Shown: positions 6,850 to 25,786 of the stretch, one piece after another
Layout of the letters: every line of letters begins with the position of its first letter
How positions within the stretch are numbered: the first letter of the stretch is position 1
Source of the DNA: Ignavibacteriaceae bacterium
Lineage (GTDB): Bacteria > Bacteroidota > Ignavibacteria > Ignavibacteriales > Ignavibacteriaceae
Assembly: GCA_031292455.1 (NCBI GenBank)
Contig: JARLHC010000039.1
Span: forward strand, 1-33,409
Length of the DNA stretch: 33,409 bases
Reading direction: 5' to 3'
Made by a program: the position numbers and the translations under genes
Notes under the pieces: generated by a model
The model's database searches: none
Told to the model about the DNA's origin: nothing
Seen by the model: the letters and a program-made list of their open reading frames with translations, nothing else

Positions 6850-8166
6850 TTACTTTAATAAAGTCATTTTCTTTACTTGTGAAAAGTTGTCAGTCTCAAG
6901 TTTATAAATATAAAGACCTGAATTTAATCCTTCAGCATTGAAGTTAACAGTATATGAACCGGCTTCTTTGAATCCGGTTAGTAATGTTCTTACTTCCTGC
7001 CCTAAAAGGTTATATACTTTTAATGAAACATTACCTGCTTTGGCAATACTGAAATTAATTGTAGTTGATGGATTAAAAGGATTAGGGAAATTCTGATTTA
7101 ATCCAAATTGAACGGGTGCATTAAATTCAACTTCTACTGTCTTTGAATAAGAAAATGCTCCTGAGTAATCGACTTGTTTTAACCTGTAAGAATATTTTCC
7201 GACCACTGATAATTTGTCAGTGTATGAATAATTATGGATTTCAGTTGAAGTCCCATTTCCATTAATGTTAGCGATTGTTGTGTAATTATCCTTTGATCCG
7301 CTTAATTTCCTCTGTACTTCAAATCCTTTATTATTTATTTCTGAAGCGGTGGACCATCTTAAATTTACATTATTATTAACGACTGAAGCTGAGAATGATG
7401 TTAACTCTACCGGGAGTACGTCACTCCACTGGGTGCCTACTATTAATCCATCTACTTGAACCGTAGGAGCATTGGATGCACTGCCTTGTCTAAAATTGAT
7501 TGAAGATATAGAAGATGGTGTAGCCAGACCTGTTATATCAGTTCCTGCCGATGTAGAAATAGTAGGGGTAGGTTCTGTACCACCTATGGTAGGACTTACG
7601 AATAGATCAACTTCGTCATCAGTTGTTGTCGTTGGGTTAAATTTATATTTGATCACTATTAAATAAGTCTGGTTAAAATTTAGCGGTTGATTGGTATATA
7701 CATATGAACCACCAGCACTATATTTCTCTAATCCGAAATCAAATGTATTGGTAGCGCTCGATCTGATTGCAGTTCTGCAAAAAAGATTGAATGTACCGCC
7801 ATCCGCGAAATGAACAAAATAATCCCCGGCTGCTGAAGCTGCTGAGCAATTAACTAGAAGTGAAGCATAAACGGCACCGCTGGAAAGGCTAGTACCAAGT
7901 AAATGAAAATCATCTTCTCCGGAAGTTCCTATTTGAACGGCTCCACCAACTCCTGTCCCAAACGAATAACCGGGATATGTAAGGCTTGTTGCAATTACTT
8001 GCATAGGGGTTGTACCGGCCCCTGATCCTGCTGTCCAGCCACCTTGGGTTACAAGATTACCAGTTGTATAACTAAAATTGTCTGAGAATAATACCTGGGA
8101 ATTAACTATTCCGCAAAATAAAAATGCTGAAAACAACACAATTAAGAAAGTATTTCTAAGTCGCAT
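6850..8166 (-). CDS. secreted protein with T9SS type A sorting domain
   Basis: The protein has 438 residues. An N-terminal Sec signal peptide (MRLRNTFLIVLFSAFLFCG, cleavage near NSQ) is followed by a beta-rich region (about 25-245) of Gly/Ser/Thr-rich sequence resembling a LamG or jelly-roll fold. A fibronectin-III-like segment starts at VELTSFSASV (about 252). The T9SS type A sorting domain (about 352-438) begins with LNQNFPNPFNPSTTI and ends in KKMTLLK. It is therefore expected to be exported by Sec, cross the outer membrane by T9SS and be anchored or released by the PorU-type sortase encoded further on. The specific activity is unknown; a carbohydrate-binding or surface role is a guess. 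Confidence 0.88.
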   Translation of the reverse strand: MRLRNTFLIVLFSAFLFCGIVNSQVLFSDNFSYTTGNLVTQGGWTAGSGAGTTPMQVIATSLTYPGYSFGTGVGGAVQIGTSGEDDFHLLGTSLSSGAVYASLLVNCSAASAAGDYFVHFADGGTFNLFCRTAIRSSATNTFDFGLEKYSAGGSYVYTNQPLNFNQTYLIVIKYKFNPTTTTDDEVDLFVSPTIGGTEPTPTISTSAGTDITGLATPSSISSINFRQGSASNAPTVQVDGLIVGTQWSDVLPVELTSFSASVVNNNVNLRWSTASEINNKGFEVQRKLSGSKDNYTTIANINGNGTSTEIHNYSYTDKLSVVGKYSYRLKQVDYSGAFSYSKTVEVEFNAPVQFGLNQNFPNPFNPSTTINFSIAKAGNVSLKVYNLLGQEVRTLLTGFKEAGSYTVNFNAEGLNSGLYIYKLETDNFSQVKKMTLLK

Positions 8167-10407: not shown

Positions 10408-10749
10408 ATGAAACGATACGAGAAACATATATTTATTTGTGAAAACAAAAGACCGGCTGACGATCCGAGGGGATGTTGTTACGATAAAGGAAGTTCGGAG
10501 ATAAAAGTAAAATTTAAGGAACGGATCAGACAACTAGGGCTTAAAGCATCTGTGCGTGCAAACACGTCTGGCTGCTTAGATGCTTGTGAATTTGGGCCTT
10601 CTATTGTAGTTTATCCTGAACAAATCTGGTATGGTGGCGTTACAATTGATGATGTTGAGGAGATAATACAGGATCACATAATAAATAATAAGCCGGTCGA
10701 AAGACTTATGATTAAACATCCAAGTTTTAATAAAAATAATGGACACTAA
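10408..10749 (+). CDS. thioredoxin-like [2Fe-2S] ferredoxin
   Basis: The protein has 113 residues and is cytoplasmic. Four cysteines fit the thioredoxin-fold [2Fe-2S] ferredoxin pattern: Cys11 and Cys24 (C-x12-C; Cys23 is adjacent) and Cys56 and Cys60 (C-x3-C within SGCLDACEFGP). The stretch after the second pair, GPSIVVYPEQIWYGGVT, is typical of this family and of NuoE-like subunits. It would carry one electron to or from an unidentified partner. The last 11 bases overlap the start of the endonuclease III gene, so the two are translated from one mRNA. That links an Fe-S electron carrier to an Fe-S DNA repair enzyme, though co-expression need not mean direct interaction. Confidence 0.88.
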   Translation: MKRYEKHIFICENKRPADDPRGCCYDKGSSEIKVKFKERIRQLGLKASVRANTSGCLDACEFGPSIVVYPEQIWYGGVTIDDVEEIIQDHIINNKPVERLMIKHPSFNKNNGH

Positions 10750-11377
10750 TAATAAAGACAGAGCTAAAAAGATTTTTTCTCTGCTTAAGAAAGAATATCC
10801 GGACGTAAAAAGTGCTCTGGATTTTACAACTCCATTTGAACTTTTAATTGCCACCATATTGTCTGCACAAAGCACGGATGTCCAGATAAATAAAGTTACT
10901 CCCAATTTATTTAAGAAATTTAAAACTCCCCAGGATTACATTAAAGTTCCAATCGGGGAGCTTGAAAAGGATATCCATTCAACCGGCTTCTTCCATGCAA
11001 AAGCGAAGAGTATAAAAAACTGCTGTAAAACTTTGGTTGAAAAGTATAGTGGTAAAGTACCTGAAACTTTTGACGAGTTAAATACTTTGCCCGGAGTAGG
11101 GAGGAAAACAGCCTCAGTTGTAGCAGGAAATGCATTCGGAATTCCGGCTATTGCAGTAGATACTCACGTTAAAAGACTGTCAAATCTTCTAGGTTTTATT
11201 AAATCTGACAATACGGAGCACATCGAAATTAGATTAAAAGAGCTTTTACCTGAAAAGGATTGGGTAAAAGATTCTCATCTTTTGATTTCCCATGGCAGAA
11301 AGATATGCATTGCCAGACGTCCCAGATGCTCCCAATGCGTATTAGGAGATTTATGCCCTTCTTATAATCCAGAATAG
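10739..11377 (+). CDS. nth: endonuclease III (DNA glycosylase/AP lyase)
   Basis: The protein has 212 residues, the usual length. It removes oxidised pyrimidines from DNA in base excision repair and cleaves the abasic site. The helix-hairpin-helix LPGVGRKTA contains the catalytic Lys123, followed by the catalytic Asp141 in AVDTHV. The C-terminal [4Fe-4S] cluster ligands are Cys190, Cys197, Cys200 and Cys206, in the canonical C-x6-C-x2-C-x5-C spacing. The N-terminal ILSAQSTD segment is also typical. The start overlaps the end of the ferredoxin gene by 11 bases, and the HD-domain gene follows after 11 bases, so the three form an operon. Confidence 0.97.
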   Translation: MDTNNKDRAKKIFSLLKKEYPDVKSALDFTTPFELLIATILSAQSTDVQINKVTPNLFKKFKTPQDYIKVPIGELEKDIHSTGFFHAKAKSIKNCCKTLVEKYSGKVPETFDELNTLPGVGRKTASVVAGNAFGIPAIAVDTHVKRLSNLLGFIKSDNTEHIEIRLKELLPEKDWVKDSHLLISHGRKICIARRPRCSQCVLGDLCPSYNPE

Positions 11378-11388
11378 GAAATATAATT

Positions 11389-11961
11389 ATGAATGATATT
11401 GCCGGAGACAGAAATTTCTGCCTGTCGATTCTTAAAGAGTTTACTAAAAATGAAAGTTTATTGAAACATGCCTACGCTGTTGAAACTTGCGTAAGGGCTT
11501 ATGCTCTGAAGTTCAATGAGGATATTGAATACTGGGGGAATGTTGCTTTGCTTCATGATTTTGATTATGAAATGTATCCAACTGCCATTGATCATCCTTT
11601 CAAAGGCGCAGAAATTCTTAAAGGAAGAGGTTTTGATGAGGATTTTGCAAATTCTATCCTTTCACATGCAGACTATTCAGGAGTGCCGCGAAATACCTTG
11701 TTAAGAAAAACTCTTTTCGCCTGTGATGAATTAGCGGGATTTATAACTGCGGTTACTTATGTTAGGCCTAACAAATCAGTTGATGAAGTTGAAGTTAAAT
11801 CTGTCAGAAAGAAAATGAAAGATAAAGCTTTTGCAAGTAAGGTGAACAGGGAAGATATTATTAATGGTGCTTCTGGGCTGGGAATTCCTTTAGATGAACA
11901 CATCGACTTTTGTATAAATGCAATGAGGAAAAATAAATTCGAGTTAGGTCTTACTTCATGA
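11389..11961 (+). CDS. HD-domain phosphohydrolase family protein
   Basis: The protein has 190 residues. It carries the HD superfamily metal-site pattern: His27 (LLKHAYA), His56-Asp57 (LLHDFDYE), further His69 and His93 (LSHADYSG), and Asp113 (CDELAG). The family hydrolyses phosphate esters, often of nucleotides; the substrate here is not evident. Close relatives are usually annotated only as HDIG-domain or HD-domain hydrolases. It lies 11 bases after nth, which suggests co-transcription and possibly a link to nucleotide handling, but that is inference from position. The metal-binding residues are all present, so it is probably active. Confidence 0.82.
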   Translation: MNDIAGDRNFCLSILKEFTKNESLLKHAYAVETCVRAYALKFNEDIEYWGNVALLHDFDYEMYPTAIDHPFKGAEILKGRGFDEDFANSILSHADYSGVPRNTLLRKTLFACDELAGFITAVTYVRPNKSVDEVEVKSVRKKMKDKAFASKVNREDIINGASGLGIPLDEHIDFCINAMRKNKFELGLTS

Positions 11962-12174: not shown

Positions 12175-15100
12175 ATGAAAAGCAAAATCTCGGTAATTCT
12201 TTTACTGCTTATATCCTGGCAATGTTTTGGTCAGACAGATACCCGCATTCTTTCATCTGACTTTAATTCATTTGTAATTGAATACACACCGAAAATTTCA
12301 GATTCCAATATTGTCAAATTGAATAATGAAGATTATTTAAACGTCTCTTTCAAAGGAAATATTTATGACGATAAAAATTTTGGAGTTCCATCTATACCGT
12401 ATTATGCATTTCCGCTTGGAGTTCCTTCGGAATTTGGAAATACTATCCAGATTCTTAGTTCTTCATTTAAAGATATTCAGGGGAAGTTATTGCCTGTGCC
12501 CAAACCTGTAAAAATAAATGGCATCCCCTCAAAGAAATTTGAAAAAGGAGATAAATATTATAGTTTTAATACAATAGGTGAAGACCTGGCGGGCTTTGGG
12601 CACTTCGGTATAGTTAGGGGGGTTCCTGTTCAGATTATAGTCATAAAACCCGTGCAATTCAATTGTACTGAGAATAAGATCAGAATTTATACAAAAATGG
12701 TTTTAAAAGTGAGTTTCTCGGCATCTCAGGTTAAAAATTCTGCCGTTAACGATGATTTTCTTAAAGGTGTAATAACGAATTATTCTATAGCCAGACAATG
12801 GAATACAAATGCTGAGAGATTGAATAAAACTAAGGGAAATATCAATAGCGTGTTGAACTCTGGTAAATGGTACAAATTTGAGGCACCAAATGAAGGAATT
12901 TATAAAATTACTAAATCCATGTTGTCCTCTTATGGAATTGATCCGAATACGGTCGACCCCCGTACCATTAAAATATACAACAATGGAGGTACAACGCTTC
13001 CCGAGGACGTAACTTTGCCTGCTCCTTCTGACTTAGTCGAAAATGCAATATATATATCAGGCGAATCTGATGGCAAATTTGATGACAGTGATTATGTCTT
13101 GTTTTACGGGCGGGGGACTAATTTTTGGAATTATAATACCTCAAGCAAAAATATTGTACGCAAGTTTAATCCATATTCAATCCAAAACTATTACTGGATA
13201 ACATCAGGCGGAAGTAACGGAAAACGAATACAACCAAAACAAAGTGAAAGTGCTCCGGCAGACTATATACAGGGTAATTCGAAAGCTTTTGCCTATTATC
13301 ATCAGGATTTAATTAATATTGCTTCAAGCGGCAGAAACTTTCTAGGGGACGCATTTAACCAGGCTACCCTTTCAAGGACATACAATAATTTACTTGAAAG
13401 TCTGGTTCCCGGATCAAGAATTGATTACGTCTTCAATTTTGTCAATAGTGATCCAATAAATAATGTTGAATTAAAAGTGGATGAAAGCGGTAATACCCTT
13501 TACGATTCTTTTATTCCCGGAATAAATATTGATCCGAATCCGGACTATGCATACGGTCACGCAACTCAGGCAACTGCTTCCTTTACAGGCACTTTATCTG
13601 ATAACCGGAGCCTTTTAAAATTCACTTTTAATGCATCAAGTGCAGCTTCAAAGGGATATATTGATTGGTTTGAGATTTATTATAACAGATCCCTTTCAAC
13701 AATTAATGATAGGATAATATTTTTCTCCTCGGATACGACTGCTAAAATTGAATATGATCTTAATAACTTTTCAAACAGTAATATTCAGGTATATGATATT
13801 ACCGATTATGCTAATGTAGAAATAATAACAAATCCCATGCTTTTAAGCGGCAGTGAGTTCAAATTTATTTCTTCTGAAAAGCAGGGTTTTGTTTCCAAAT
13901 ACTATGCTGTTGGAAATAATAATTTTATGACTCCTGTTAATCCGGTTGTAGCGGAAAATTCAAACCTTCATGCATTCCAGGACGGGGCAAAATTTATAAT
14001 CATAACTCCGAAAGATTTTATGGATCAGGCTGTAAGATTAAAATCTTTTAAAGAAAATCATCCTAAACTAAATATATCAACTTATGTTGCAGATGTTGAC
14101 CAGATATTTAATGAATTCTCCGGCGGTATGAAAGATGTTGGCGGGATCAGAAATTTCATTAAATATGCTTATGATACGTGGACAGTTAAACCCGAATATG
14201 TCCTACTTTTCGGCGACGGCACATATGATTATAAGAATGTCGAAGGTTTTGGAAATAATTATATTATTCCCTATGAAACTGAATTTTCGTTGAACCTGAT
14301 TGATTCCTATCCGATGGATGATTTTTATGTCCGGCTGAGCGGCAATAATGATCTTCTTGTCGATCTGGGAATCGGAAGAATAACTGCCAACTCTCTGGCA
14401 GACGCCCGGATCGCTGTAGATAAAATTATCTCATATGAATCTGATATCGCTAAGGGAAGCTGGCAAAATTTAATAACAATGGTAGCAGATGATCAATGGA
14501 CTTCAACTACGAACGAAGGAAATTATCACGTTGTACAATCTGAAACTCTGGCTTCATATTATATACCTGTTTCGTATGATATAAATAAAATTTATCTTGG
14601 AGAATATCCTACTGTAATAACGAGTTTTGGAAGAACTAAACCTGGAGTTACTGAAGATTTGGTTAAGAGTATTAACAATGGTACTCTAATCGTTAATTTT
14701 ATTGGCCATGGGAGTCCGGAACTATGGACACATGAAAAAGTATTTGAAAACAGTTCGACTATTCCCCGTTTAGTTAACAGCGATCTTTTCTTTTTAACTG
14801 CTGCAACCTGTGACTTTGGTTATTATGATAATCCATCCTCTCAAAGTGGTGCTGAATTACTTCTTTTAAAAGAGGGGAGCGGTTCAATTGGAAGTGTTAC
14901 TTCGAGCAGACCGGTATATTCTGACGAAAATGCTGCTCTGAATCAGGAATTTTATTCTGATCTATTAAGCTCTCCAAGGGATACATTAAATCTTCCAATT
15001 CCTGTCGGAAAAGCTTATTATCAAATGAAATTAGTCAGATATGGAGAAAATGATCAGAAATATCATTTATTTTGTGATCCTTCATTAAGATTATCCATAC

Positions 15101-16167
15101 CGCGATATAACTCAAATATTGATTCAATTAATGGTCAGACTTTAATTTCCAACGTTCAAATAAAAGCATTAAGTAATACAAGGATTCATGGGAATATTTT
15201 GCAGCCGGATAATTCGTTATGGAATAACTTTAATGGCGAAGGTATCCTTACAGTCTATGATTCACAAAGACAGATAGGTATGACGGAACAGCCCGGCATA
15301 AATATTAACCTTCAGGGGGGGATAATTTTTAGGGGAAAAGTGTCTGTTGCTAATGGTAAATTTAATTCAAGCTTTATTGTACCCAAGGATATTTCTTATG
15401 AGAACAAGAACGGCAAAGTTGCATTTCTATTCTATAATAATGATGCTGATGGTTTAGGTTATACCAATAATGTTTTGATTGGCGGTACTGATACCACAGC
15501 AGTTAATGATAATAAAGGTCCGAACATTGATATTTATTTCGATGATTTAACCTTTAAGAGCTCATATCTGGTGAACCCGGATTCCAAGCTGATAGTGAAA
15601 CTTTCTGATCCTTCAGGGTTAAATACTACAGGAACCGGAATAGGACATAAGATACAGGGAGTTCTAAATGACAATATTACTAACCCCATTGATTTTACAT
15701 CATATTTTACGGGGGATCTGGATGCTGGTGGTAAATCAGGTATGGTAAATTATCAATTTAATAACCTTGATCAGGGTCATTATAAATTGCAGGTGCAGGC
15801 ATGGGATGTATTTAATAATTTTTCAAATGAAACGGTTTTTTTTGATGTGGTATCAGGTAATGATCTTACTTTAGGTGATGTCTATAATTACCCGAACCCA
15901 TTCTCCGGGAAAACAACATTTACATTCCAGCAGAATCTGGACAGAATATTTAATGTGAAAATTAAGATTTATACTGTTGCAGGAAGATTAATCAAAGTTA
16001 TAGATGAATATGGAGTTCATGAAAAGTATGTAACGATAGAATGGGATGGAAAGGATCAGGATGGAAATTTTATTGCTAACGGTGTTTATTTCTATAAAGT
16101 AATTCTAAATTCAACTGACGGGAATTTCAGTAAAAACGTAATAGGAAAACTTGCGAAGATCAGATAA
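12175..16167 (+). CDS. porU: type IX secretion system sortase PorU (C25 family)
   Basis: The protein has 1330 residues with a signal peptide (MKSKISVILLLLISWQCFG). A long beta-rich N-terminal region includes the SGKWYKFEAPNEGIYKI segment typical of PorU. The gingipain-type C25 domain spans about 605-975, starting at FIIITPKDF; the catalytic pair is His845 (IGHGSPELWTHE) and Cys879 (AATCDFG). The C-terminus (about 1235-1330) is a FlgD-like/T9SS sorting domain beginning YNYPNPFSG. PorU removes the C-terminal sorting domain of T9SS cargo at the cell surface and joins the cargo to an anchor. It is followed after 83 bases by porV, whose product tethers PorU in the outer membrane. The cargo genes at 6850 and 32032 are likely clients. 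Confidence 0.92.
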   Translation: MKSKISVILLLLISWQCFGQTDTRILSSDFNSFVIEYTPKISDSNIVKLNNEDYLNVSFKGNIYDDKNFGVPSIPYYAFPLGVPSEFGNTIQILSSSFKDIQGKLLPVPKPVKINGIPSKKFEKGDKYYSFNTIGEDLAGFGHFGIVRGVPVQIIVIKPVQFNCTENKIRIYTKMVLKVSFSASQVKNSAVNDDFLKGVITNYSIARQWNTNAERLNKTKGNINSVLNSGKWYKFEAPNEGIYKITKSMLSSYGIDPNTVDPRTIKIYNNGGTTLPEDVTLPAPSDLVENAIYISGESDGKFDDSDYVLFYGRGTNFWNYNTSSKNIVRKFNPYSIQNYYWITSGGSNGKRIQPKQSESAPADYIQGNSKAFAYYHQDLINIASSGRNFLGDAFNQATLSRTYNNLLESLVPGSRIDYVFNFVNSDPINNVELKVDESGNTLYDSFIPGINIDPNPDYAYGHATQATASFTGTLSDNRSLLKFTFNASSAASKGYIDWFEIYYNRSLSTINDRIIFFSSDTTAKIEYDLNNFSNSNIQVYDITDYANVEIITNPMLLSGSEFKFISSEKQGFVSKYYAVGNNNFMTPVNPVVAENSNLHAFQDGAKFIIITPKDFMDQAVRLKSFKENHPKLNISTYVADVDQIFNEFSGGMKDVGGIRNFIKYAYDTWTVKPEYVLLFGDGTYDYKNVEGFGNNYIIPYETEFSLNLIDSYPMDDFYVRLSGNNDLLVDLGIGRITANSLADARIAVDKIISYESDIAKGSWQNLITMVADDQWTSTTNEGNYHVVQSETLASYYIPVSYDINKIYLGEYPTVITSFGRTKPGVTEDLVKSINNGTLIVNFIGHGSPELWTHEKVFENSSTIPRLVNSDLFFLTAATCDFGYYDNPSSQSGAELLLLKEGSGSIGSVTSSRPVYSDENAALNQEFYSDLLSSPRDTLNLPIPVGKAYYQMKLVRYGENDQKYHLFCDPSLRLSIPRYNSNIDSINGQTLISNVQIKALSNTRIHGNILQPDNSLWNNFNGEGILTVYDSQRQIGMTEQPGININLQGGIIFRGKVSVANGKFNSSFIVPKDISYENKNGKVAFLFYNNDADGLGYTNNVLIGGTDTTAVNDNKGPNIDIYFDDLTFKSSYLVNPDSKLIVKLSDPSGLNTTGTGIGHKIQGVLNDNITNPIDFTSYFTGDLDAGGKSGMVNYQFNNLDQGHYKLQVQAWDVFNNFSNETVFFDVVSGNDLTLGDVYNYPNPFSGKTTFTFQQNLDRIFNVKIKIYTVAGRLIKVIDEYGVHEKYVTIEWDGKDQDGNFIANGVYFYKVILNSTDGNFSKNVIGKLAKIR

Positions 16168-16236
16168 TTGTTAATTGGATTCAAATATCAGGTAATTATT
16201 TTAATAAATTTCAGGAGTTTTAATTGTCTATTAATT

Positions 16237-16241
16237 GGAGG
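16237..16241 (+). promoter_or_regulatory. ribosome binding site that fixes the porV start
   Basis: GGAGG lies nine bases before ATG at 16251. This favours that ATG over the in-frame TTG at 16224, which would add nine residues ahead of a normal signal peptide. Confidence 0.75.
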
Positions 16242-16250
16242 ATCGTACAA

Positions 16251-17408
16251 ATGAAAATAGTATTTAGGTTCTTGATGGTCAGCATTATGATTGTCGCATT
16301 TGGAAAAGTAACCCATGCTCAAGGAGAAGCTGCTGTACCATTTCTGGAATTAGCTCCGGACTCAAGAGCAGGCGCTATGGGTGAATCAGGTGCAGGATTG
16401 GCAGATAATTCTGCTGCTGTATTCTGGAATCCGGCAGGTCTTGCATTTCAGAATGGGTCTGATGTAAGCATAACTCATAGTAACTGGCTGCCTACTTTTC
16501 ACCTGGATCTGTTCTATGAGTATTTGACTTATAAACAATATGTTGATGATATAGGCGGAACTGTTTCGGCAAGTATTACTTATATGAACTTCGGTACTTT
16601 TGCAAGAACTGGTCCTGATTCACCCGATATTATTGCTACATTTCATTCTTTTGATGCAGCTTTAACGTTAGGATATGCAACAAAGATATCTCCGGATTGG
16701 GGTCTCGGATTTAATTTTAGGATTATTCACAGCCAGTTATCAGATCAGCCGACAGGGCAGGAACAGGGATCAGGTGTAGCTACTACCATCAGTTTTGACG
16801 TTGCAACTATGTGGAGACCGGCAAAATTAGTTATACCTCTTGTCGATGAAGACATAGGCGGCCTTTTAAGCGTTGGTTTAAATATCAGTAATATTGGTCC
16901 AAAGATCTATTATATAGATAAAGCCCAGGCAGACCCGATCCCAACAAATTTCAGATTAGGTTTTGCATATAAGGTAATCGATAGTGATTTTAACAATCTT
17001 ACCTTCACATTAGACTTTTCAAAATTGATGGTAAGTACCGATACGAATAAAACAAAGGAATGGTATCAATCGATAATTACTTCCTGGGGTGAAAAACCAT
17101 TCAGTGAAGAAATGAGAATGGTTAATACTTCAATGGGACTTGAATATCTATACGGAACACCAGGAGATTTCGTCTTTGCCCTAAGAGCAGGTTTCTTCTA
17201 TGAGGATCCGGATTACGGCAACAGGAAGTTTGTTACATTTGGCGCCGGTATAAAGTATGATATTTATAATTTTGATTTTAGTTATATTACTACTGATGTA
17301 TTTAAAGGATTTGAAAACCATCCCCTTAATAATACTTTAAGGTTTTCAATTTCTATCGGTTGGGGACAAAATATTACAACAAATAAAGGATTCCCTCGGG
17401 GAGTTTAA
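16251..17408 (+). CDS. porV: type IX secretion outer-membrane protein PorV
   Basis: The protein has 385 residues from the ATG with a good ribosome binding site. The signal peptide ends near THAQG. The mature N-terminus, AAVPFLELAPDSRAGAMGESG followed by WNPAGLAF, is the hallmark of the PorV/PorP-like FadL-type barrel family. The rest alternates short beta strands and turns, as in an outer-membrane barrel, and it ends in a strand with aromatic residues (RFSISIGWGQ). PorV collects T9SS cargo from the translocon and forms the attachment complex with PorU. It lies between porU and the M6-like gene, with only six bases to the next start, so it is clearly in the operon. Confidence 0.92.
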   Translation: MKIVFRFLMVSIMIVAFGKVTHAQGEAAVPFLELAPDSRAGAMGESGAGLADNSAAVFWNPAGLAFQNGSDVSITHSNWLPTFHLDLFYEYLTYKQYVDDIGGTVSASITYMNFGTFARTGPDSPDIIATFHSFDAALTLGYATKISPDWGLGFNFRIIHSQLSDQPTGQEQGSGVATTISFDVATMWRPAKLVIPLVDEDIGGLLSVGLNISNIGPKIYYIDKAQADPIPTNFRLGFAYKVIDSDFNNLTFTLDFSKLMVSTDTNKTKEWYQSIITSWGEKPFSEEMRMVNTSMGLEYLYGTPGDFVFALRAGFFYEDPDYGNRKFVTFGAGIKYDIYNFDFSYITTDVFKGFENHPLNNTLRFSISIGWGQNITTNKGFPRGV

Positions 17409-17414
17409 CCCTAT

Positions 17415-20400
17415 ATGTCTAAAAGGCTGTTAGTATTTTTTCTATTTATAAGCCTGGGCAGTTTAACTGCCCAGAAATTTTCCGGAAAGTTAAACCCTTT
17501 TCCTCAAAAATCTCAATCTGTATTTAGTGGTGACACATTAAAAATTCTTGCAGTACTTGTTAATTTCCAGGAAGATAACGATGCCGCAACATTTGGTAAT
17601 GGGAAATTCGGTTCCATATATACCCAGAATTATGGTGATAAAATATTAGACCCGCTTCCTCATGATAAACAATATTTTGAATCTCATCTCGAGTTTACCA
17701 AGAACTATTTCAGCAAAGTTTCTAAGGGGAAACTGAATGTTTCCTATACAGTCCTGCCGGATACACTAACAGTTTCAAAGATTATGAAGAATTATTCACC
17801 TCCGAATAATTCCACTGATTTTACTCCTCTCGGTGATTTTGCCACAGAAGTATGGACGTTAGCAGACCAGCATTATACATCTGTTGATTTCGGCGGTTAT
17901 GATTTATTTATAATATTTCATGCCGGCGTCGGACGCGATGTTACGCTTCCGGGGAGTCTTGGTAATGAAAAAGATCTCCCGTCAGTTTATCTCGGACAGG
18001 ATGCGTTCAAAAAAATATACGGTTCTTCATATCCAGGAATTCCTGTTTCCGGAGGTAATTTTCATATCCTTAACAGTATGGTTATTCCGGAAACGGAAAA
18101 CAGGGAAGTATCAAGTTTAGGGCAGACTTCTTTATTCCAAATTACAATAAATGGATTATTAACTGCCAGTATTGCCAGTTATCTTGGACTTCCCGATCTG
18201 TACGATACTAAAACAGGTCTTAGTGCAATAGGCAGATTCGGATTAATGGACGGGCAGGCGATATTTTCATACGGAGGAGCATTTCCTCCTGAACCATCTG
18301 CATGGGAAAAGATATACCTTGGTTGGGCACAACCAGTTACTATTTCTCCGGGTTCATTTAACATAAATTTAACTGCCGGACTGGCTGCATTACCGGCTGA
18401 TACTGTAATATTAAAGGTACCGATTAATTCATCCGAATATTTTCTGGTTGAAAACCGGGAAAGGGATGTAAATAATAATGGTGCTATACTTACTATAAAA
18501 TCAGGCGGACAGACAATAACCAAAACATTCACGCAGGATACGACAGGATTTTACAGCTTTGCGGTAGATTCTCTCTATGGTGTGGTGACTGATGTTGATG
18601 AACTTGACTGGAGCCTTCCGGGATATATAGCAGGTACCTCTGATTATAAAGGGGGGATAGTAATCTGGCATATTGATGATAATGTAATAAATACCAAAAT
18701 AGCTTCTGACCAGATAAATACAGATAAAACCGACAGGGGTGTTGAAGTTGTTGAGGCAAACGGTGTAAAGGAAATTGGTGAATTATTTACAACTATATTA
18801 GGGGATCAGGTTGTTGGTGAAGGTTCCTATGAAGATTATTACTTTAAGAATAATCCTGCTACTCTATACAGAAATATATTTGACAAGGACAGCCGGCCGA
18901 ATAGTAATACTCATTCAGGAGCTAACAGTCTTATTTCTATGTCGGGATTTTCAGATTCCGGCAACAAGATGAACTTCAACCTTTCATATGGTGATTCTGT
19001 TGTTAAATCAGTTTTTGTAACCTATGATTCAACTTTCTCAAATAACTTTACGAAATTAACCTCTACCGGCAGAAGATTATTTATAGCGAATGAAAACCGA
19101 TTATACTCATCTGATAATTCCGGGAATTTAAATTCTGCTGTAATTCCACTTTCGACCTTTAAACCTTCTTCGGTTTCTATTGATACGGTTGATTACATTT
19201 TCGGAATTAAGGATTCCTTTATAACAGTTACCGGGTATTCGTCAAATACTCCTTTTGTATTGAAAAGAAGTATAAGCACCGGAAGAATATTAACCAGTTC
19301 TCCTGTAATTCGTAAAACAGGAGAGTTAACAGAACTTTTGGTTGGTGCAAACGGGGGTTACATTCTTATCTATAATATTGATCCAACTCTCCCGGATATT
19401 ATCCAGTTATCGTCGATTGCCATGGCCGGAGATAATACACATGTTGTAAAAAGTATCTGCGCAGATAATACTTATTATGCGGCACTGGCTCCTGAAGATT
19501 TCCCGGCACAATCTTCTGTAATTAGTGACGGTCAGAAAACAGTTACCATCAATGATGTTATAGCTCAGGTGTCATTAACTAAATCTCATGGAAATTATAC
19601 TATTATTGCTTTAGGAAATAATGGGTTCTATATTATTTCCAACGGAATAATTATTAGAAGAATAAGTCTCACTAATATTGTAAAATCATTTGCGCTTGCT
19701 GACCTGAAAAATGATGGGGATAATTACATTATATATTCAACAGGAAGCCAGGTTCATGCAATAAACCTAACCGGTGCCAAAGCAGTTAGTTTTCCCTTCA
19801 CAGACCCGGATGGTCAGAACTTTTCCGGTGCTATCTTAACAGCCGATTTTGAAGGAGATTCTAAATCCGAGATTATCGCAAATACACAGGATGGAAGAAT
19901 CTTTGCCATTGACGGGGGAACAGGTAAAGTTGTTTCAGGATTTCCGATATCCACAGGAAAACTAATATTAGCATCTGCAATATATAATGATAATGGAAAG
20001 ATTTCACTGGCAGCCATCGATTCGAGCAAACATTTTTACGGATGGCATATCGGATCAACAGCAGGCACACCTTACTGGGCAGAAGAAAATGGCAGTAATC
20101 TTAACAGTTCATTTATTGCCGGTGCAACTGCTACCAATTATGTGAATGAGTTTTTCCCAAAGGGGAAAGTATACAATTATCCCAACCCAGTATATACAGG
20201 ACAAACCGCTATTCGTTATTATGTAGCGGAGAATTCTAAAATTAATATTAAAATATTCGATCTTGCCGGTGATTTTGTCGCTGAATTAAATAATGAAGCT
20301 CAGGGTGGGTATGAGAGTGAAACCATTTGGAATGTGAGCAATATTCAAAGTGGTATTTATCTTGCACGTGTTGAAGCTGTTGGTTCTGACGGCAAAACGG

Positions 20401-20435
20401 AAAGTAACATTATTAAAATTGCAGTTGTTAAATAA
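17415..20435 (+). CDS. M6-like metalloprotease homologue without zinc site, with propeller and T9SS sorting domain
   Basis: The protein has 1006 residues with a signal peptide (MSKRLLVFFLFISLGSLTAQ). Residues 40-330 follow the M6 (immune inhibitor A-like) peptidase fold: AVLVNFQ, YFSKVSKGKLNV, GLPDLYD (258-264) and FGLMDG (275-280). Where active members have HEFGH directly before LGLPDLYD, this one has ASIAS (251-255), so zinc binding and catalysis are almost certainly lost. Residues about 530-920 look like a beta-propeller with FG-GAP/VCBS-like repeats (ADFEGDSKSEIIA). The C-terminus (about 915-1006) is a T9SS-type sorting domain starting at VYNYPNPV. It lies six bases after porV. A structural role in the surface complex is an inference. 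Confidence 0.85.
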   Translation: MSKRLLVFFLFISLGSLTAQKFSGKLNPFPQKSQSVFSGDTLKILAVLVNFQEDNDAATFGNGKFGSIYTQNYGDKILDPLPHDKQYFESHLEFTKNYFSKVSKGKLNVSYTVLPDTLTVSKIMKNYSPPNNSTDFTPLGDFATEVWTLADQHYTSVDFGGYDLFIIFHAGVGRDVTLPGSLGNEKDLPSVYLGQDAFKKIYGSSYPGIPVSGGNFHILNSMVIPETENREVSSLGQTSLFQITINGLLTASIASYLGLPDLYDTKTGLSAIGRFGLMDGQAIFSYGGAFPPEPSAWEKIYLGWAQPVTISPGSFNINLTAGLAALPADTVILKVPINSSEYFLVENRERDVNNNGAILTIKSGGQTITKTFTQDTTGFYSFAVDSLYGVVTDVDELDWSLPGYIAGTSDYKGGIVIWHIDDNVINTKIASDQINTDKTDRGVEVVEANGVKEIGELFTTILGDQVVGEGSYEDYYFKNNPATLYRNIFDKDSRPNSNTHSGANSLISMSGFSDSGNKMNFNLSYGDSVVKSVFVTYDSTFSNNFTKLTSTGRRLFIANENRLYSSDNSGNLNSAVIPLSTFKPSSVSIDTVDYIFGIKDSFITVTGYSSNTPFVLKRSISTGRILTSSPVIRKTGELTELLVGANGGYILIYNIDPTLPDIIQLSSIAMAGDNTHVVKSICADNTYYAALAPEDFPAQSSVISDGQKTVTINDVIAQVSLTKSHGNYTIIALGNNGFYIISNGIIIRRISLTNIVKSFALADLKNDGDNYIIYSTGSQVHAINLTGAKAVSFPFTDPDGQNFSGAILTADFEGDSKSEIIANTQDGRIFAIDGGTGKVVSGFPISTGKLILASAIYNDNGKISLAAIDSSKHFYGWHIGSTAGTPYWAEENGSNLNSSFIAGATATNYVNEFFPKGKVYNYPNPVYTGQTAIRYYVAENSKINIKIFDLAGDFVAELNNEAQGGYESETIWNVSNIQSGIYLARVEAVGSDGKTESNIIKIAVVK

Positions 20436-20468
20436 AACTCCAATCCATTTTCCTCAAAATCAGGTTTT

Positions 20469-23400
20469 ATGAATAAGATCATAATCTTTTTTTTATTATT
20501 ATTTACCAGCGTATCATTTTCTCAATTCACACAATTCCATCCTGAACTTCAATGGTATACAATAAAAGGGACACATGTACAGGTACATTTTCATGAAGGA
20601 GCCGAAAGGACAGCAAGGGTAGTATGTAAAATAGCTGATGAAGTTTGGGGCCCGATTACCTCTTTATATGAATACGAACCTGAGACAGTTCATTTTGTTA
20701 TCAAGGATCTTGATGATTATTCAAACGGAGCGACATACTTCTTCGATAACAAAATTGAAATATGGACAAGTGCTCTTGATTATGATTTGCGGGGGACACA
20801 TAACTGGCTGCGAAATGTAATCTCGCATGAGTTTACGCATATGGTTCAGATCCAATCATCAATGAAAGCTGTGAGAACATTACCGGCAGTTTTTTTCCAG
20901 GTTCTTAATTACGAAGCAGAAAGACGTCCTGATATTCTTTACGGATATCCTAACTTTGTGGTTTCATATCCAATAGCAACTTTGAACATGCCTGCCTGGT
21001 TTGCTGAAGGGACTGCACAGAATATGAGACCTGATTTTGAATATGACAGGTGGGATACTCATCGTGATATGATACTCCGTTCTTATGCATTAGATAATAA
21101 CATGCTTACATGGAATGAGATGGGGGAATTTGGTAAAACAAGTCTTGGCAACGAATCAGTTTATAATGCCGGATTTGCTTTAACGCGGTACATTTCGCAG
21201 AAATACGGGGAGAATAAATTAAAGGAGATTTCCAGATCATTAGGTAAACTTGGTAATTTTACGATAGATGCTGCATTCCGGGATGTATTAGGAAAAGATG
21301 GGACAGAGATATATGGCGAATGGAAAAGTTTTATAACGGAGAGTTATAAAAAGAGAATTGCAGCGGTTCAATCAAATATGATACAGGGAGATGAGATCGG
21401 GAAAGAGGGATTCGGCAATTTTTATCCTGTCTTTTCCGCTGACGGGAAAAAGATACTGTATGTTTCCAATAAATCATCTGATTACTTCAGCCCTTCAGGA
21501 GTATATCTTTATGACATTGATACAAAAAAGGAAGAGGAGATTGTCAGCAATGTCAGATCTACAGTAACATGGATACCAGGGACCAATAAGATTGTTTATG
21601 ATAAAATTGGAGACGATAACCCTAACTGGTATAATGTGCATGATCTTTATGTATATGATATCGATACAAAAAAAGAAATAAGGTTAACATTTAACTCAAG
21701 GGCAAACCAACCATCCGTTTCAAAAGACGGAAAGAAAATAACATTTATCTTTCAAAAAGACGGTACAACCAATCTTGGGGTTGTAGATATAGACGGAAAG
21801 AATTTCAAACAGCTTACGCCATTCAGCAACGGAGAGCAGGTATACAACCCGACCTTCTCAAACGATGATTCTTATATTATTTTTGATTATTCATACCGCG
21901 AATCACGTGATATCGCCAGAATAAACAGTGATGGAACCGGGTACCAGGTATTGATAGGCAAGAGCAGTGATGACAGAAATCCAGTGATAGATTCCAAAGG
22001 AAACCTGATATATTCTTCAGATGAAACGGGGATATTTAATATTTACTATATGGATATGCAGACAAAGGAAAAAAAGCAGCTTACCAATGTTGTAGGCGGA
22101 GCTTTTATGCCAAATGTTAATCAGAATGGTGATATTACATATGCAGGGTACACGTCACAGGGCTATAAGATATTTTACCTTCCTAAAAATGAGCAGACCA
22201 CTGTAGACACAACAAAGAAATACGAATGGATAAGCAATCCTCCTATTGATAAGAGTAATCCCAAGGGGGATTTGGTTAAATTCAATATGGACAAACTGAA
22301 GAACTACAATGATTATGAAACTCCTGACTACAAAAAAGAGAAATATACAGGAGTGTTTTCTAAAATGACATTCTTTCCGGTTATCAGGTATGACAATTAC
22401 AGTACCTCAAATAATTTTGTTGATAAAATTAAACCGGGACTTTATGTTACATCCAATGATATGCTAAACAGGTATTCTATTTTTGCAGGGGCATCAATAA
22501 ACCAAAGGCTGGAGAGGGATCTTTTCTTTGTGTTTGAATATAAGAATAAACTTCCACTTTTATTTGACCTGGGATTAAAACCGGAATTAAGTCTTGAATT
22601 ATATAATATTTCCAGGATAGCATCTCAACGAGACACTATTGGTGAAGGTATAGACCCAGTTAATGTTGATATTACTTATAATCTGTTTGAAGTTGATCTG
22701 GCTGCAGCCCACAGAATACTAAGCAGAAATCAGAATATTGAATTCAGATATATATTCAGCAGGTATTCTGCTTTAATCGGGAGTTTTATATATCCACTTG
22801 AACAAGGACCCATGCTTACATCTGCATTTGATGATACATATTTAATCAGCAGTAATTTCCAGATAAAATACAATTTCGATTTACTATTACCATACAGAGA
22901 TTCGGAAATAAATCCAATCGGCTCTCAGATTGAACTGAAGTATAACTATGAAATAAACAGATATAATATTAGCGGCAACTACACACCAGATAACAGCGGC
23001 AATTTAGTTCCAGATTATCAGCCATTCAATTTTCACAGTCTTGAATTAAATATAAAGTCCCATTTTCCGTTGTGGTGGAATCATACAATATCTGCACAAG
23101 TCAGGTTAGGGAATATATTCGGGCCGACAGTACCGGACTTTTTCAATTTTTATCTTGGCGGACTTATTGGGATGAAGGCATATCCTTTTTATTCAGTAAG
23201 CGGAAATAAAGTAGGCTGGTTAAACCTGACTTACCGGTTTCCACTTTTCAAGGATATTGATTCAAGGGTAGGACAGTTATATATTGATAAGATCTTTATG
23301 TCATTCTACGGCGATTTAGGAAATGCGTGGAACGGGAATAAAATTCCTGCATTAAGTGATTTCAAGAAAGGCGTTGGAACTGAGTTAAGGATGGAAATGA

Positions 23401-23546
23401 GTTCATTTTATTTATTCCCTACAATGTTATTTCTTAATGCGTCATATGGATTTGACCAGGTAACGCTTAATATCAGAGGTCAGGATTTCACATACGGAAA
23501 GGAATGGCGTTTTTACGGCGGAGTATTATTTAGTTTTGATTTTTAA
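20469..23546 (+). CDS. gluzincin protease - TolB-like propeller - outer-membrane barrel fusion
   Basis: The protein has 1025 residues with a signal peptide ending near SVSFSQ. The N-terminal domain (about 25-310) is a gluzincin-type (peptidase MA-like) domain: HEFTH at 120-124 gives two zinc ligands and the catalytic Glu121, and Glu180 in PAWFAEGTAQ is the likely third ligand. Residues about 317-575 are PD40/TolB-like propeller repeats (for example PVFSADGKKILYVSN, PSVSKDGKKITF). The last ~390 residues are a beta barrel of the Omp85/surface-antigen kind; YLGGLIGMKAYPF resembles the GG..xRGY loop of BamA, and the chain ends in FSFDF. It is 33 bases after the M6-like gene. The protease is probably held at the outer membrane; which side and substrate are unknown. 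Confidence 0.85.
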   Translation: MNKIIIFFLLLFTSVSFSQFTQFHPELQWYTIKGTHVQVHFHEGAERTARVVCKIADEVWGPITSLYEYEPETVHFVIKDLDDYSNGATYFFDNKIEIWTSALDYDLRGTHNWLRNVISHEFTHMVQIQSSMKAVRTLPAVFFQVLNYEAERRPDILYGYPNFVVSYPIATLNMPAWFAEGTAQNMRPDFEYDRWDTHRDMILRSYALDNNMLTWNEMGEFGKTSLGNESVYNAGFALTRYISQKYGENKLKEISRSLGKLGNFTIDAAFRDVLGKDGTEIYGEWKSFITESYKKRIAAVQSNMIQGDEIGKEGFGNFYPVFSADGKKILYVSNKSSDYFSPSGVYLYDIDTKKEEEIVSNVRSTVTWIPGTNKIVYDKIGDDNPNWYNVHDLYVYDIDTKKEIRLTFNSRANQPSVSKDGKKITFIFQKDGTTNLGVVDIDGKNFKQLTPFSNGEQVYNPTFSNDDSYIIFDYSYRESRDIARINSDGTGYQVLIGKSSDDRNPVIDSKGNLIYSSDETGIFNIYYMDMQTKEKKQLTNVVGGAFMPNVNQNGDITYAGYTSQGYKIFYLPKNEQTTVDTTKKYEWISNPPIDKSNPKGDLVKFNMDKLKNYNDYETPDYKKEKYTGVFSKMTFFPVIRYDNYSTSNNFVDKIKPGLYVTSNDMLNRYSIFAGASINQRLERDLFFVFEYKNKLPLLFDLGLKPELSLELYNISRIASQRDTIGEGIDPVNVDITYNLFEVDLAAAHRILSRNQNIEFRYIFSRYSALIGSFIYPLEQGPMLTSAFDDTYLISSNFQIKYNFDLLLPYRDSEINPIGSQIELKYNYEINRYNISGNYTPDNSGNLVPDYQPFNFHSLELNIKSHFPLWWNHTISAQVRLGNIFGPTVPDFFNFYLGGLIGMKAYPFYSVSGNKVGWLNLTYRFPLFKDIDSRVGQLYIDKIFMSFYGDLGNAWNGNKIPALSDFKKGVGTELRMEMSSFYLFPTMLFLNASYGFDQVTLNIRGQDFTYGKEWRFYGGVLFSFDF

Positions 23547-23565: not shown

Positions 23566-24432
23566 ATGAGGATAAGGTATTTAGTTATAACTATTGTTCT
23601 TTGTGCTGTAAGTTTATTTCCTCAGACCAACACCAATTTAACCGGAAGCCTGTCTGCAGATTCGCGACTTATCCAAAATGAATATAAGGATAATGCAGTT
23701 AAGCAGAATCCATTAGTAACCCCATCTGATAAAAAATCTGTACTACTTGCGGGAATTCTTTCAGGAGTATTTCCCGGTGCCGGAGAAGTTTACGTAGGCG
23801 GCTCAACAAATTATATAAAAGCAGGTGCTCTTGTACTTATTGAAGCTGTTTCAATTTATTATTCAATAAGCTATAACCAGAAGGGGGATGCACAGACGAA
23901 TTATTTTCAGAACTATGCAGATAAAAGGTGGAGTGTTGTAAGATATGCTCAATGGATAAATGATAATACAAATGGAACAAAGGTAATTATATATCCTGCA
24001 GATGCCCAGCATCCAAATCCATGGCAGCAGGTGGACTGGACGAGTCTGAATGCAGCAGAAGATGCAATTGGAGCAACAGGTTTCACACATCATTTATCTC
24101 CCCACGGAGTACAGCAATATTATGAATTGATAGGAAAATATCCACAATATGCGAGAGGATGGGAAGATTATGTTCCTACAGATAACCCCGATTATCATTC
24201 GCCGGAATTTGATGCTTATGCGACTATGAGGGGAGATGCCAATGCTCTTTATAAAATATCAACCAGGGGTGTTACATTTCTTTATGTAAATCATTTATTA
24301 GGTATACTTGATGCAATATGGAGTGCGTCTTCATTTAATAAAAATCTTGCAGTTAATTTAAGATATGAACATGTAAATATGGCCTACTTAGAAGATTGGG
24401 CACCTACATTACATATTAGTTACAACTTTTAA
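23566..24432 (+). CDS. DUF5683-like exported protein
   Basis: The protein has 288 residues with a signal peptide (MRIRYLVITIVLCAVSLFPQ). The conserved part is KSVLLAGILSGVFPGAGEVYVGG (about 64-86), followed by a hydrophobic segment (about 90-107). This matches the pattern of DUF5683-type envelope proteins of Bacteroidota (an 'S...PG.GQ.Y' motif next to a membrane helix). The function of the family is unknown. GGAGG five bases before the ATG supports the start. It is 19 bases after the barrel-fusion gene, so it probably belongs to the same envelope-biogenesis transcript. The C-terminus NLRYEHVNMAY...ISYNF resembles an outer-membrane strand ending. Confidence 0.6.
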   Translation: MRIRYLVITIVLCAVSLFPQTNTNLTGSLSADSRLIQNEYKDNAVKQNPLVTPSDKKSVLLAGILSGVFPGAGEVYVGGSTNYIKAGALVLIEAVSIYYSISYNQKGDAQTNYFQNYADKRWSVVRYAQWINDNTNGTKVIIYPADAQHPNPWQQVDWTSLNAAEDAIGATGFTHHLSPHGVQQYYELIGKYPQYARGWEDYVPTDNPDYHSPEFDAYATMRGDANALYKISTRGVTFLYVNHLLGILDAIWSASSFNKNLAVNLRYEHVNMAYLEDWAPTLHISYNF

Positions 24433-24475: not shown

Positions 24476-25786
24476 ATGAAAACATCTATCGTAGTTATAG
24501 TAGGAAGGCCAAATGTAGGTAAATCCACACTTTTCAACAGACTTGTGGGGAGGAAAGAAGCAATAGTTCATGATTTAAGCGGAGTGACAAGGGACCGTAA
24601 CTATGGTGAAGTTGAATGGGCGGGGAAGGAATTCAAGCTTATAGATACAGGTGGTTATGTGCCGAGATCGCCAGACCTGTTTGAGACTGCAATAAGGGAA
24701 CAGGTTCAGATAGCGATAGCCGAAGCCGATAGTGTAATTTTCCTTGTTGATGTAAAAGCAGGGTTAACCGCTTTTGATATAGAAATAGGGAAAATCTTAA
24801 GAAGTTCGAATAAGAAGTTCTTCCTTGTCGTAAATAAAGTGGACTCAGAGAAGCTTGAGCCGGGAGCAGCAGAATTTTATTCCCTTGGAGTTGATAAGAT
24901 ATATGATATCTCGGCTGTAGCGGGGAGGAACATCGGAGATCTTCTTGATGTAATTACTGCCGATCTTCCGATGAAAGAGGAAGAAGAAGAGAGTTTAAAG
25001 TTAAAGATTGCGATAGTAGGAAGACCTAATGTAGGGAAATCATCATTAGCTAATGCGTTATTGGGCGAGGACAGGAGCATAGTTACAGATATTCCCGGAA
25101 CGACAAGGGACAGCCTGGATTCCGTTCTTAAATACTATGGTCAGGAAATAACCCTGATAGATACTGCAGGATTAAGAAAGAAGAAGAAGGTAGAGGAGAA
25201 CATTGAGTTTTTCTCCACGATAAGGACTTTAAGAGCTATAGCAGAATGTGAAGTTGTTATTATCCTTGTTGATGCCCAGACCGGAATAGAAAAGCAGGAC
25301 CAGAAAATAATAGATGAGGCTGTATCAAGAAGGAAATCAATTATACTGGCTGTTAATAAATGGGACCTGATTGAGAAAGATACAAACACTGCCAGGCAGT
25401 TTGAACTTGCAATAAAAGATAAAATGGGGTCAATTGATTATGTGCCGGTTGTTTTTATTTCGGCATTGACCAAACAAAGAATATATAAACTGATTGATCT
25501 TGCTATTGAAATATTCAAGGAAAGGAAGAAACAAATTCCCACAAGTGAACTTAATGAGACAATACTTCCAGAGATTGAAAAGAATCCTCCTCCTTCTACT
25601 GCAACAGGGAAAGAGGTTAAGATTAAATATATAACACAGGCAAAGGGAAGTTATCCTGTCTTTTTATTCTTTACAAATTATCCTAAAGAAATCCCCGAAC
25701 ATTATAAAAGATATTTAGAAAAACTAATAAGAAGGAAATTCGGTTTTACCGGAGTTACCGTAATATTAAGTTTTAAGGCTAAATGA
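24476..25786 (+). CDS. der: ribosome assembly GTPase Der (EngA)
   Basis: The protein has 436 residues, the expected size, with two tandem GTPase domains. In the first, the P-loop GRPNVGKST is at 10-18, followed by DTGG and NKVD. In the second, GRPNVGKSS starts at about 182, followed by DTAG and NKWD. The C-terminal ~85 residues form the KH-like domain with the usual ending FGFTGVTVILSFKAK. Der binds the 50S subunit and is needed for its maturation. It starts 43 bases after the DUF5683 gene and overlaps the next gene by four bases (ATGA), so translation of the two is coupled. Confidence 0.97.
   Translation: MKTSIVVIVGRPNVGKSTLFNRLVGRKEAIVHDLSGVTRDRNYGEVEWAGKEFKLIDTGGYVPRSPDLFETAIREQVQIAIAEADSVIFLVDVKAGLTAFDIEIGKILRSSNKKFFLVVNKVDSEKLEPGAAEFYSLGVDKIYDISAVAGRNIGDLLDVITADLPMKEEEEESLKLKIAIVGRPNVGKSSLANALLGEDRSIVTDIPGTTRDSLDSVLKYYGQEITLIDTAGLRKKKKVEENIEFFSTIRTLRAIAECEVVIILVDAQTGIEKQDQKIIDEAVSRRKSIILAVNKWDLIEKDTNTARQFELAIKDKMGSIDYVPVVFISALTKQRIYKLIDLAIEIFKERKKQIPTSELNETILPEIEKNPPPSTATGKEVKIKYITQAKGSYPVFLFFTNYPKEIPEHYKRYLEKLIRRKFGFTGVTVILSFKAK

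Follow-up and report, generated by a model that had tools for sequence, protein, structure and literature searches.

A candidate PorV-linked accessory module of the type IX secretion system: a dead M6-like peptidase kept together with a barrel-borne gluzincin

What are an inactivated metalloprotease and a membrane-barrel protease doing directly behind porU and porV? The question is raised by a run of plus-strand genes in a stretch of 33,409 nucleotides (the window) from contig JARLHC010000039.1 of an Ignavibacteriaceae bacterium (assembly GCA_031292455.1; 3.36 Mb in 171 contigs, completeness 96.7%; G000 among our genomes). In Porphyromonas, the attachment complex of the type IX secretion system (T9SS) consists of PorU, PorV, PorQ and PorZ, the last being a propeller protein with a sorting domain, and the T9SS parts list as a whole derives from few cultured species. 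A preliminary description of the locus took four of its genes for a lineage-specific attachment module in which the dead M6 homologue, here called M6i, fills the place of PorZ next to a barrel-tethered gluzincin, here GZ. Our overall reading, to which we give a probability of about one half, is that M6i and GZ, nearly always with a protein of the DUF5683 family, may form an accessory module of the T9SS that is linked to PorV and stands apart from the attachment complex. The run comprises the following features:

12175..16167 (+): porU, type IX C-terminal signal peptidase/sortase (C25, with propeptide and atypical C-terminal domain); NF033707, 969.6 bits; PF01364 and PF08126 above cut-off
16251..17408 (+): porV, outer-membrane shuttle, from an ATG (a TTG at 16224 is possible too); NF033710, 255 bits; PF19572 above cut-off
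17415..20435 (+): M6i, putative secreted inactivated M6-like protein; NF052323, 1011 bits; AlphaFold2 model
18165..18179 (+): M6i pseudo-active site, ASIAS replacing HExxH; aligned orthologues
18990..20060 (+): predicted M6i beta-propeller of the eight-bladed type, residues 526-882; VIA-align
20166..20432 (+): M6i type A sorting domain, residues 918-1006; Por_Secre_tail above cut-off, profile match to PorZ 5m11
20469..23546 (+): GZ, gluzincin, TolB propeller and Omp85-like barrel; family searches, AlphaFold2 model
20826..20840 (+): GZ zinc motif HEFTH, residues 120-124; orthologue conservation; third ligand probably Glu180 (21006-21008)
21378..22205 (+): predicted GZ six-bladed TolB-like propeller, residues 304-579; structure matches
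22368..23537 (+): predicted GZ 16-stranded Omp85/BamA-like barrel, residues 634-1023; model; loop-6-like motif GMKAYPFY at 23169-23192
23566..24432 (+): membrane protein of the DUF5683 family, fifth gene of the run; PF18935 in relatives, co-occurrence

The first four open reading frames (12175-16167, 16224-17408, 17415-20435 and 20469-23546) agree with the preliminary description in their order, strand and gaps of 83, 6 and 33 bases; the second opens with TTG, and it is the ATG at 16251 that yields the 83-base gap. The C25 sortase with its His/Cys pair and the PorV barrel were likewise borne out: PorU reaches 969.6 bits with NF033707 against a cut-off of 420 and 298 bits in the C25 domain, with GHGS and TAATCDFG legible in the protein, and PorV passes NF033710 narrowly (255 bits, cut-off 250), some members of its own family and order falling slightly below. 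A regular expression for the PorU active-site motifs, which matched 8 and 13 of 35 orthologues, was too strict and was left unused. The fifth gene had been missed in the preliminary description; its product in the window has no Pfam match at E 0.01, and PF18935 (DUF5683) was matched in 26 of its 28 aligned relatives.

The finding that carries our reading is the joint presence and absence of these genes in 198 genomes of the phylum, on all of which each model was run. M6i was called in 78 genomes, 74 over the cut-off of NF052323 and four at 358-388 bits; this model gave some match in 155 genomes, those not counted reaching 60 bits at most, mostly through the sorting domain. GZ, called at E 1e-120, was also found in 78; relaxing the threshold to 1e-45 adds one genome with a partial match of 168 bits, against at least 988 bits for whole genes elsewhere, and one GZ gene is split across two contigs (1153 and 610 bits). 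The two sets are identical: the same 78 genomes hold both genes and neither ever occurs alone, the pair being retained also in eight genomes in which its two genes lie apart. A spread over 78 genomes and 17 family-level groups is not that of a lineage-specific module, and the notion was dropped. DUF5683 of this type occurs in 80 genomes, namely in 77 of the 78 with the pair and in three of the 120 without it (G073, G151 and G164), and in the only pair-bearing genome that lacks it (G097) the contig ends soon after GZ. In G151, porV adjoins the DUF5683 gene; in its congener G081, M6i and GZ stand between these two, and the flanking genes are of like size in both, so that the arrangement in G151 reads as one joint loss of M6i and GZ beside PorV. 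G164 has porU, porV and the DUF5683 gene in a row without the pair. The same genome, devoid of M6i, contains a GZ-like paralogue (C15:782936-784045, 168 bits) that covers the gluzincin and propeller portion, and the DUF5683 copy of G171 (C130:33001-33969) has one in-frame TAA.

Presence of the pair was laid over a PorU tree (FastTree) of 80 genomes, 40 with M6i and 40 without, which leaves out 56 of the 136 genomes with PorU. It requires seven changes, six of them forced by starred branches, compared with 27.1 in shuffles; because the two sets are identical, every change is common to M6i and GZ. On this tree, which carried warnings on letter make-up, gain and loss look alike. The co-occurrence of M6i and GZ is thus more than shared ancestry, and the distributions make it very probable that the two act as one functional unit, with DUF5683 nearly so.

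Gene order was read around M6i in 39 other genomes and in 80 named loci, many of which end at contig ends. In the survey of neighbourhoods that the preliminary description had proposed, the genes turned out to be kept together: the order porU-porV-M6i-GZ-DUF5683 recurs in the bacterium's own family and order, through most of its class and, beyond it, in several groups belonging to other classes, and likewise in most of the named loci. The named relatives of the locus belong to Ignavibacterium, Melioribacter, Stygiobacter and other Ignavibacteria, with Kryptonia and Chloroherpetonaceae more distant. By search coordinates, porV immediately precedes M6i in 75 of 78 genomes, a count that rises to 77 with the direct reading of G011 and G006; the exception, G137, has kept porU, porV, M6i, GZ and DUF5683, all of them separate. 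M6i is immediately followed by GZ in 68 of 78 genomes; of the other ten, G104 has the pair at contig ends, G034 has a gap of 1,981 bases, and in eight the two genes lie apart. Where GZ and DUF5683 are both present (77 genomes), DUF5683 comes right after GZ in 70. Tandem copies were seen at two loci: L113 has two PorV-like genes (381 and 378 amino acids) between porU and M6i, and the left end of L083 has two PorU-like reading frames (1146 and 1324 amino acids) before porV.

Could M6i simply be one more surface cargo protein and GZ an outer-membrane protease for general quality control, held together by an old operon and a shared ancestor and without a joint task? The sorting domain of M6i is of the typical type A, which 112 matches in the source genome also show (E 0.001; a large set of T9SS cargo), and with adjacency in 68 of 78 genomes, gain and loss as a block accounts for part of the pattern. 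What makes this explanation unlikely in our view is that co-occurrence is perfect even in the eight genomes with the genes apart and over the seven changes on the PorU tree, and that cargo genes are not expected beside porV in 77 of 78 genomes.

Does the unit, then, belong to the attachment complex? Across the 198 genomes, PorU was matched in 136, PorV in 151, PorQ in 129 and PorZ in 128. All four were matched in 123 genomes, 68 with M6i and GZ and 55 without. Within the class of the source genome, 17 genomes in six family groups are without the pair, and all 17 have PorU, PorQ and PorZ, 16 of them also PorV. Conversely, five genomes (G061, G081, G108, G119 and G171) carry M6i, GZ, PorV and SprA, together with 7 to 32 sorting-domain matches, and gave no match to PorU (E 1e-90), PorQ (1e-40) or PorZ (1e-5). 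By these distributions the unit appears to follow PorV, with PorU, PorQ and PorZ not required. Of the components of the P. gingivalis complex, the run here encodes PorU and PorV, and the genes for PorQ and PorZ lie elsewhere in the genome; M6i and GZ are additional to that set. The module proposed in the preliminary description thus stands as far as its conservation and its link to PorV go; its composition grew by the fifth gene, and its place in the attachment complex did not hold.

PorU2 was considered as the sortase of PorU-less genomes and rejected: its model NF052324, which does recover the PorU of the source genome (6e-41), matched none of six such genomes at E 0.001. Another PorU-less group is seen in G147 and G195 (family code f36) and at locus L180, where PorV occurs without a PorU match and also without M6i and GZ. 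The source genome itself has four C25 peptidases beyond PorU, on contigs C39, C95, C169 and C149 (loci L002-L005), three of which match NF052324 at 232-366 bits, under its cut-off of 450.

That M6i occupies the PorZ place is, on the same data, highly improbable. In its favour one can count the combination of a propeller and a sorting domain, the absence of PorZ from seven of the 78 M6i genomes, the co-variation of its rate with that of PorU, and a weak profile match: searched against solved structures, M6i matched only the sorting domain of PorZ (5m11; residues 918-1006, E 0.0079). PF21544, the N-terminal domain of PorZ, was not found in M6i, where a Pfam scan at E 0.01 returned only Por_Secre_tail and a sub-threshold BBS7 propeller, and the likeness of M6i to PorZ appears confined to the sorting domain. 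A search for porZ and porQ, suggested at the outset, found both in the source genome: contig C18 ends in the first 339 residues of a canonical PorZ (PF21544, 53.9 bits, cut-off 27), and PorQ is broken into two pieces, one at an end of contig C58 and one at an end of C167. Of the 78 M6i genomes, 71 have PorZ and 72 have PorQ. PorZ delivers anionic lipopolysaccharide (A-LPS) to PorU (PMC8545088), and a role of the PorZ type would have no sortase to serve in the five genomes above. Since M6i is tied to porV, is kept without PorU and PorQ, and co-occurs with PorZ in 71 of 78 genomes, we rejected it as a PorZ substitute.

M6i itself is an M6 homologue without HExxH that bears a propeller and a sorting domain, as first described. 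NF052323, 'T9SS-dependent M6-like inactivated metalloprotease', matches it as a full-length member (1011.3 bits, cut-off 600, residues 6-1006), so the family already has an NCBI name; that name is silent on GZ, DUF5683 and PorV as partners. Por_Secre_tail scores 34.7 bits against a cut-off of 27. At the catalytic places neither His nor Glu occurs in 40 of 40 (alignment A1) and 73 of 73 (A4) aligned sequences, and HExxH was not found in 40 of 40 and 72 of 72 orthologues, two sets that overlap partly. The M6 assignment draws on NF052323, on a match to TIGR03296 below cut-off and on Foldseek, in which the InhA-type zymogen of immune inhibitor A2 (4yu6) ranks third; unlike the InhA-type M6 peptidases, every aligned M6i has lost the zinc-binding motif. 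The AlphaFold2 model has a predicted local distance difference test score (pLDDT) of 90.5 and a predicted template modelling score (pTM) of 0.87. Its propeller is best fitted by eight-bladed ones, including the designed Ika8 and Tako8 and also BamB, with a Z score of 30.5 for 3mks_D (root mean square deviation, rmsd, 2.5; 312 residues aligned) and 27.9 for the BamB model 9a3d (rmsd 3.3, 305 aligned); these VIA-align rows span the propeller only and are therefore silent on the M6-like domain. Mean pairwise identity among 40 orthologues is 0.45 in the M6-like domain, 0.42 in the sorting domain and 0.19 in the propeller. The sorting domain is accordingly conserved like the M6 domain and unlike the propeller, a pattern also seen in PorU (35 orthologues), with 0.40 in the C25 domain and 0.45 in the sorting domain.

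GZ presents the opposite picture at its active site, its motif being kept where that of M6i is lost. HExxH is present in 32 of 32 and 56 of 56 orthologues, Glu180 (in WFAEG) is invariant in alignments A2 and A5, and Peptidase_MA_2 is found in 32 of 32 members, the window copy scoring below cut-off. Family searches recover a PD40/TolB propeller, and the GZ profile matched only TolB-like propellers and their relatives among solved structures. The barrel emerges from the AlphaFold2 model (pLDDT 86.5, pTM 0.84), in which 16 strands were counted from the DSSP line; it aligns with BamA (8xnb_A; Z 22.7, rmsd 4.1, 327 residues), and Pfam Omp85 is matched in three of the 32 members. The propeller fits TolB (3iax_A; Z 26.6, rmsd 2.4, 243 residues) and the designed six-bladed Pizza6 (Z 23), and the structure-alignment rows leave the gluzincin domain uncovered. 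The longest barrel loop, between strands 11 and 12, bears G-[MA]-[KR]-[GSA]-[YF], its third residue being Arg in 15 of the 32 members and Lys in the other 17, which is the position and a near-form of the BamA loop-6 motif ([VRGF/Y]-type). According to the model, GZ combines a seemingly live gluzincin with a six-bladed TolB propeller and a BamA-like Omp85 barrel, in agreement with the HEFTH, propeller and barrel first reported for it. A near relative of this architecture is already in print. The WD40-Omp85 subfamily described by Heinz and Lithgow in 2014 (PMC4104836), which like some other Omp85 subfamilies carries alternative N-terminal domains, resembles GZ in having a propeller, most like TolB, in front of an Omp85 barrel without POTRA; GZ differs by the active-looking gluzincin in front and by its strict pairing with M6i.

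On which side of the membrane would the protease lie? As the barrel is of the Omp85 type and its N-terminal parts can be placed by analogy with BamA, the protease and the propeller probably face the periplasm, and a surface protease is unlikely on topological grounds. One might picture GZ exporting its own protease through the barrel to the surface, with M6i as a surface regulator or inhibitor. The strict pairing of a dead metallopeptidase with a live one would fit such a scheme, and the patatin-Omp85 protein PlpD exports its N-terminal enzyme to the surface (PMC4104836). PlpD-type proteins have POTRA domains, however, and a search of 32 GZ proteins at E 0.01 turned up no POTRA family; moreover, about 60 residues are all that separates propeller and barrel in the model, and the propeller belongs to the TolB type, which is periplasmic. 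We consider this export scheme quite improbable.

A similarly small chance is assigned to GZ being a second barrel-assembly machine (BAM) dedicated to the T9SS, insertase and protease in one, with M6i as an outer lid delivered by the T9SS and comparable to the BAM canopy of Flavobacterium johnsoniae. The BamA-like barrel with its near-form of the loop-6 motif, the presence of BamB among the propeller matches of M6i, and the extracellular canopy of the Bacteroidota BAM (PMC12611786) speak for it; the lack of a POTRA match speaks against it, as does the unspecific nature of the BamB matches, which stand among many WD40 proteins. Both systems would have a BamA-type barrel in an outer-membrane machine with parts on both faces. 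The F. johnsoniae machine has its own subunits BamG, BamH, BamM and BamP, with lipoproteins and with neither a T9SS-secreted lid nor a protease, and the purified complex did not contain T9SS components (PMC12611786).

Several observations weigh against a PorV-linked T9SS accessory module. PorV occurs in 75 genomes without M6i, and is on that account independent of the module. Rate co-variation was computed over 26 loci, after three near-duplicates were dropped from 29 eight-gene loci, with correction by the mean of three control genes; it gave 0.60 for M6i-PorU, 0.43 for M6i-GZ, 0.46 for PorV-GZ and 0.55 for PorV-DUF5683, values to which a rate history shared by neighbouring genes may contribute. 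For M6i-PorV it was 0.03, which counts against a direct or tight interface of these two proteins and favours PorU as the partner. The five PorU-less genomes may reflect one or two events, perhaps, since all share one family code (f26). Adjacent genes may also be gained or lost as a block by chance, and we infer the periplasmic side of the GZ protease solely from the type of its barrel. Three neighbours of two known T9SS parts that nearly always come and go as a group point to an overlooked part of the T9SS.

How such a PorV-linked module might work can be sketched by analogy. A type A sorting domain, once taken up by PorV, leaves SprA together with it (PMC10994853, PMC12618676), and M6i would be carried through SprA by PorV in this manner. 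P. gingivalis PorZ keeps its C-terminal sorting domain intact after secretion (PMC5121618), and M6i may retain its own likewise. On the outer face M6i would serve as a non-catalytic binding platform made of the pseudo-peptidase cleft and the eight-bladed propeller. GZ would be anchored in the outer membrane by its barrel of the Omp85 type and hold both the TolB-like propeller and the zinc protease on the periplasmic side, where it might assemble, trim or clear components of the PorV route in the outer membrane, or clients of that route. Together the two would form a single machine, M6i being its outer half and GZ its inner one. This partition of tasks, M6i outside and GZ inside, is tentative, and we would rather doubt than assert it. 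Going further is a long shot: the pair could be a two-part outer-membrane machine of the T9SS, a BamA-like barrel with a periplasmic protease under a T9SS-delivered dead-peptidase cap, that assembles or proof-reads PorV, SprA or their clients, and it could be an early T9SS part lost several times, by many later lineages including some with the full PorU-PorV-PorQ-PorZ set.

In the open-licence PubMed Central (PMC) literature we found nothing that names M6i with the T9SS or DUF5683 with PorV or the T9SS, nor the strict M6i-GZ pairing, the independence from PorU, PorQ and PorZ, or the membership of DUF5683. Three further genes track the PorV route over 17 family-level groups almost without exception. 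Should the pair prove to be a working unit, it would allow two questions to be addressed directly, namely what receives PorV cargo where no sortase is present and how the unusually large barrels of the T9SS come to be built and kept in check. With a conserved dead protease next to a live partner, the module also lends itself well to the study of pseudoenzymes.

The larger neighbourhood around the run is conserved too: nth, an HD-domain gene and der (10739-11961 and 24476-25786 in the window) flank it in many relatives among the Ignavibacteria. A promoter scan gave no excess over chance (46 found, 54.5 in shuffles), and terminator-like sites were in slight excess (12 against 7.3), in a pattern that was not useful. 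One of the sorting-domain matches of the source genome sits in the window as well, in the minus-strand reading frame 6850-8166.

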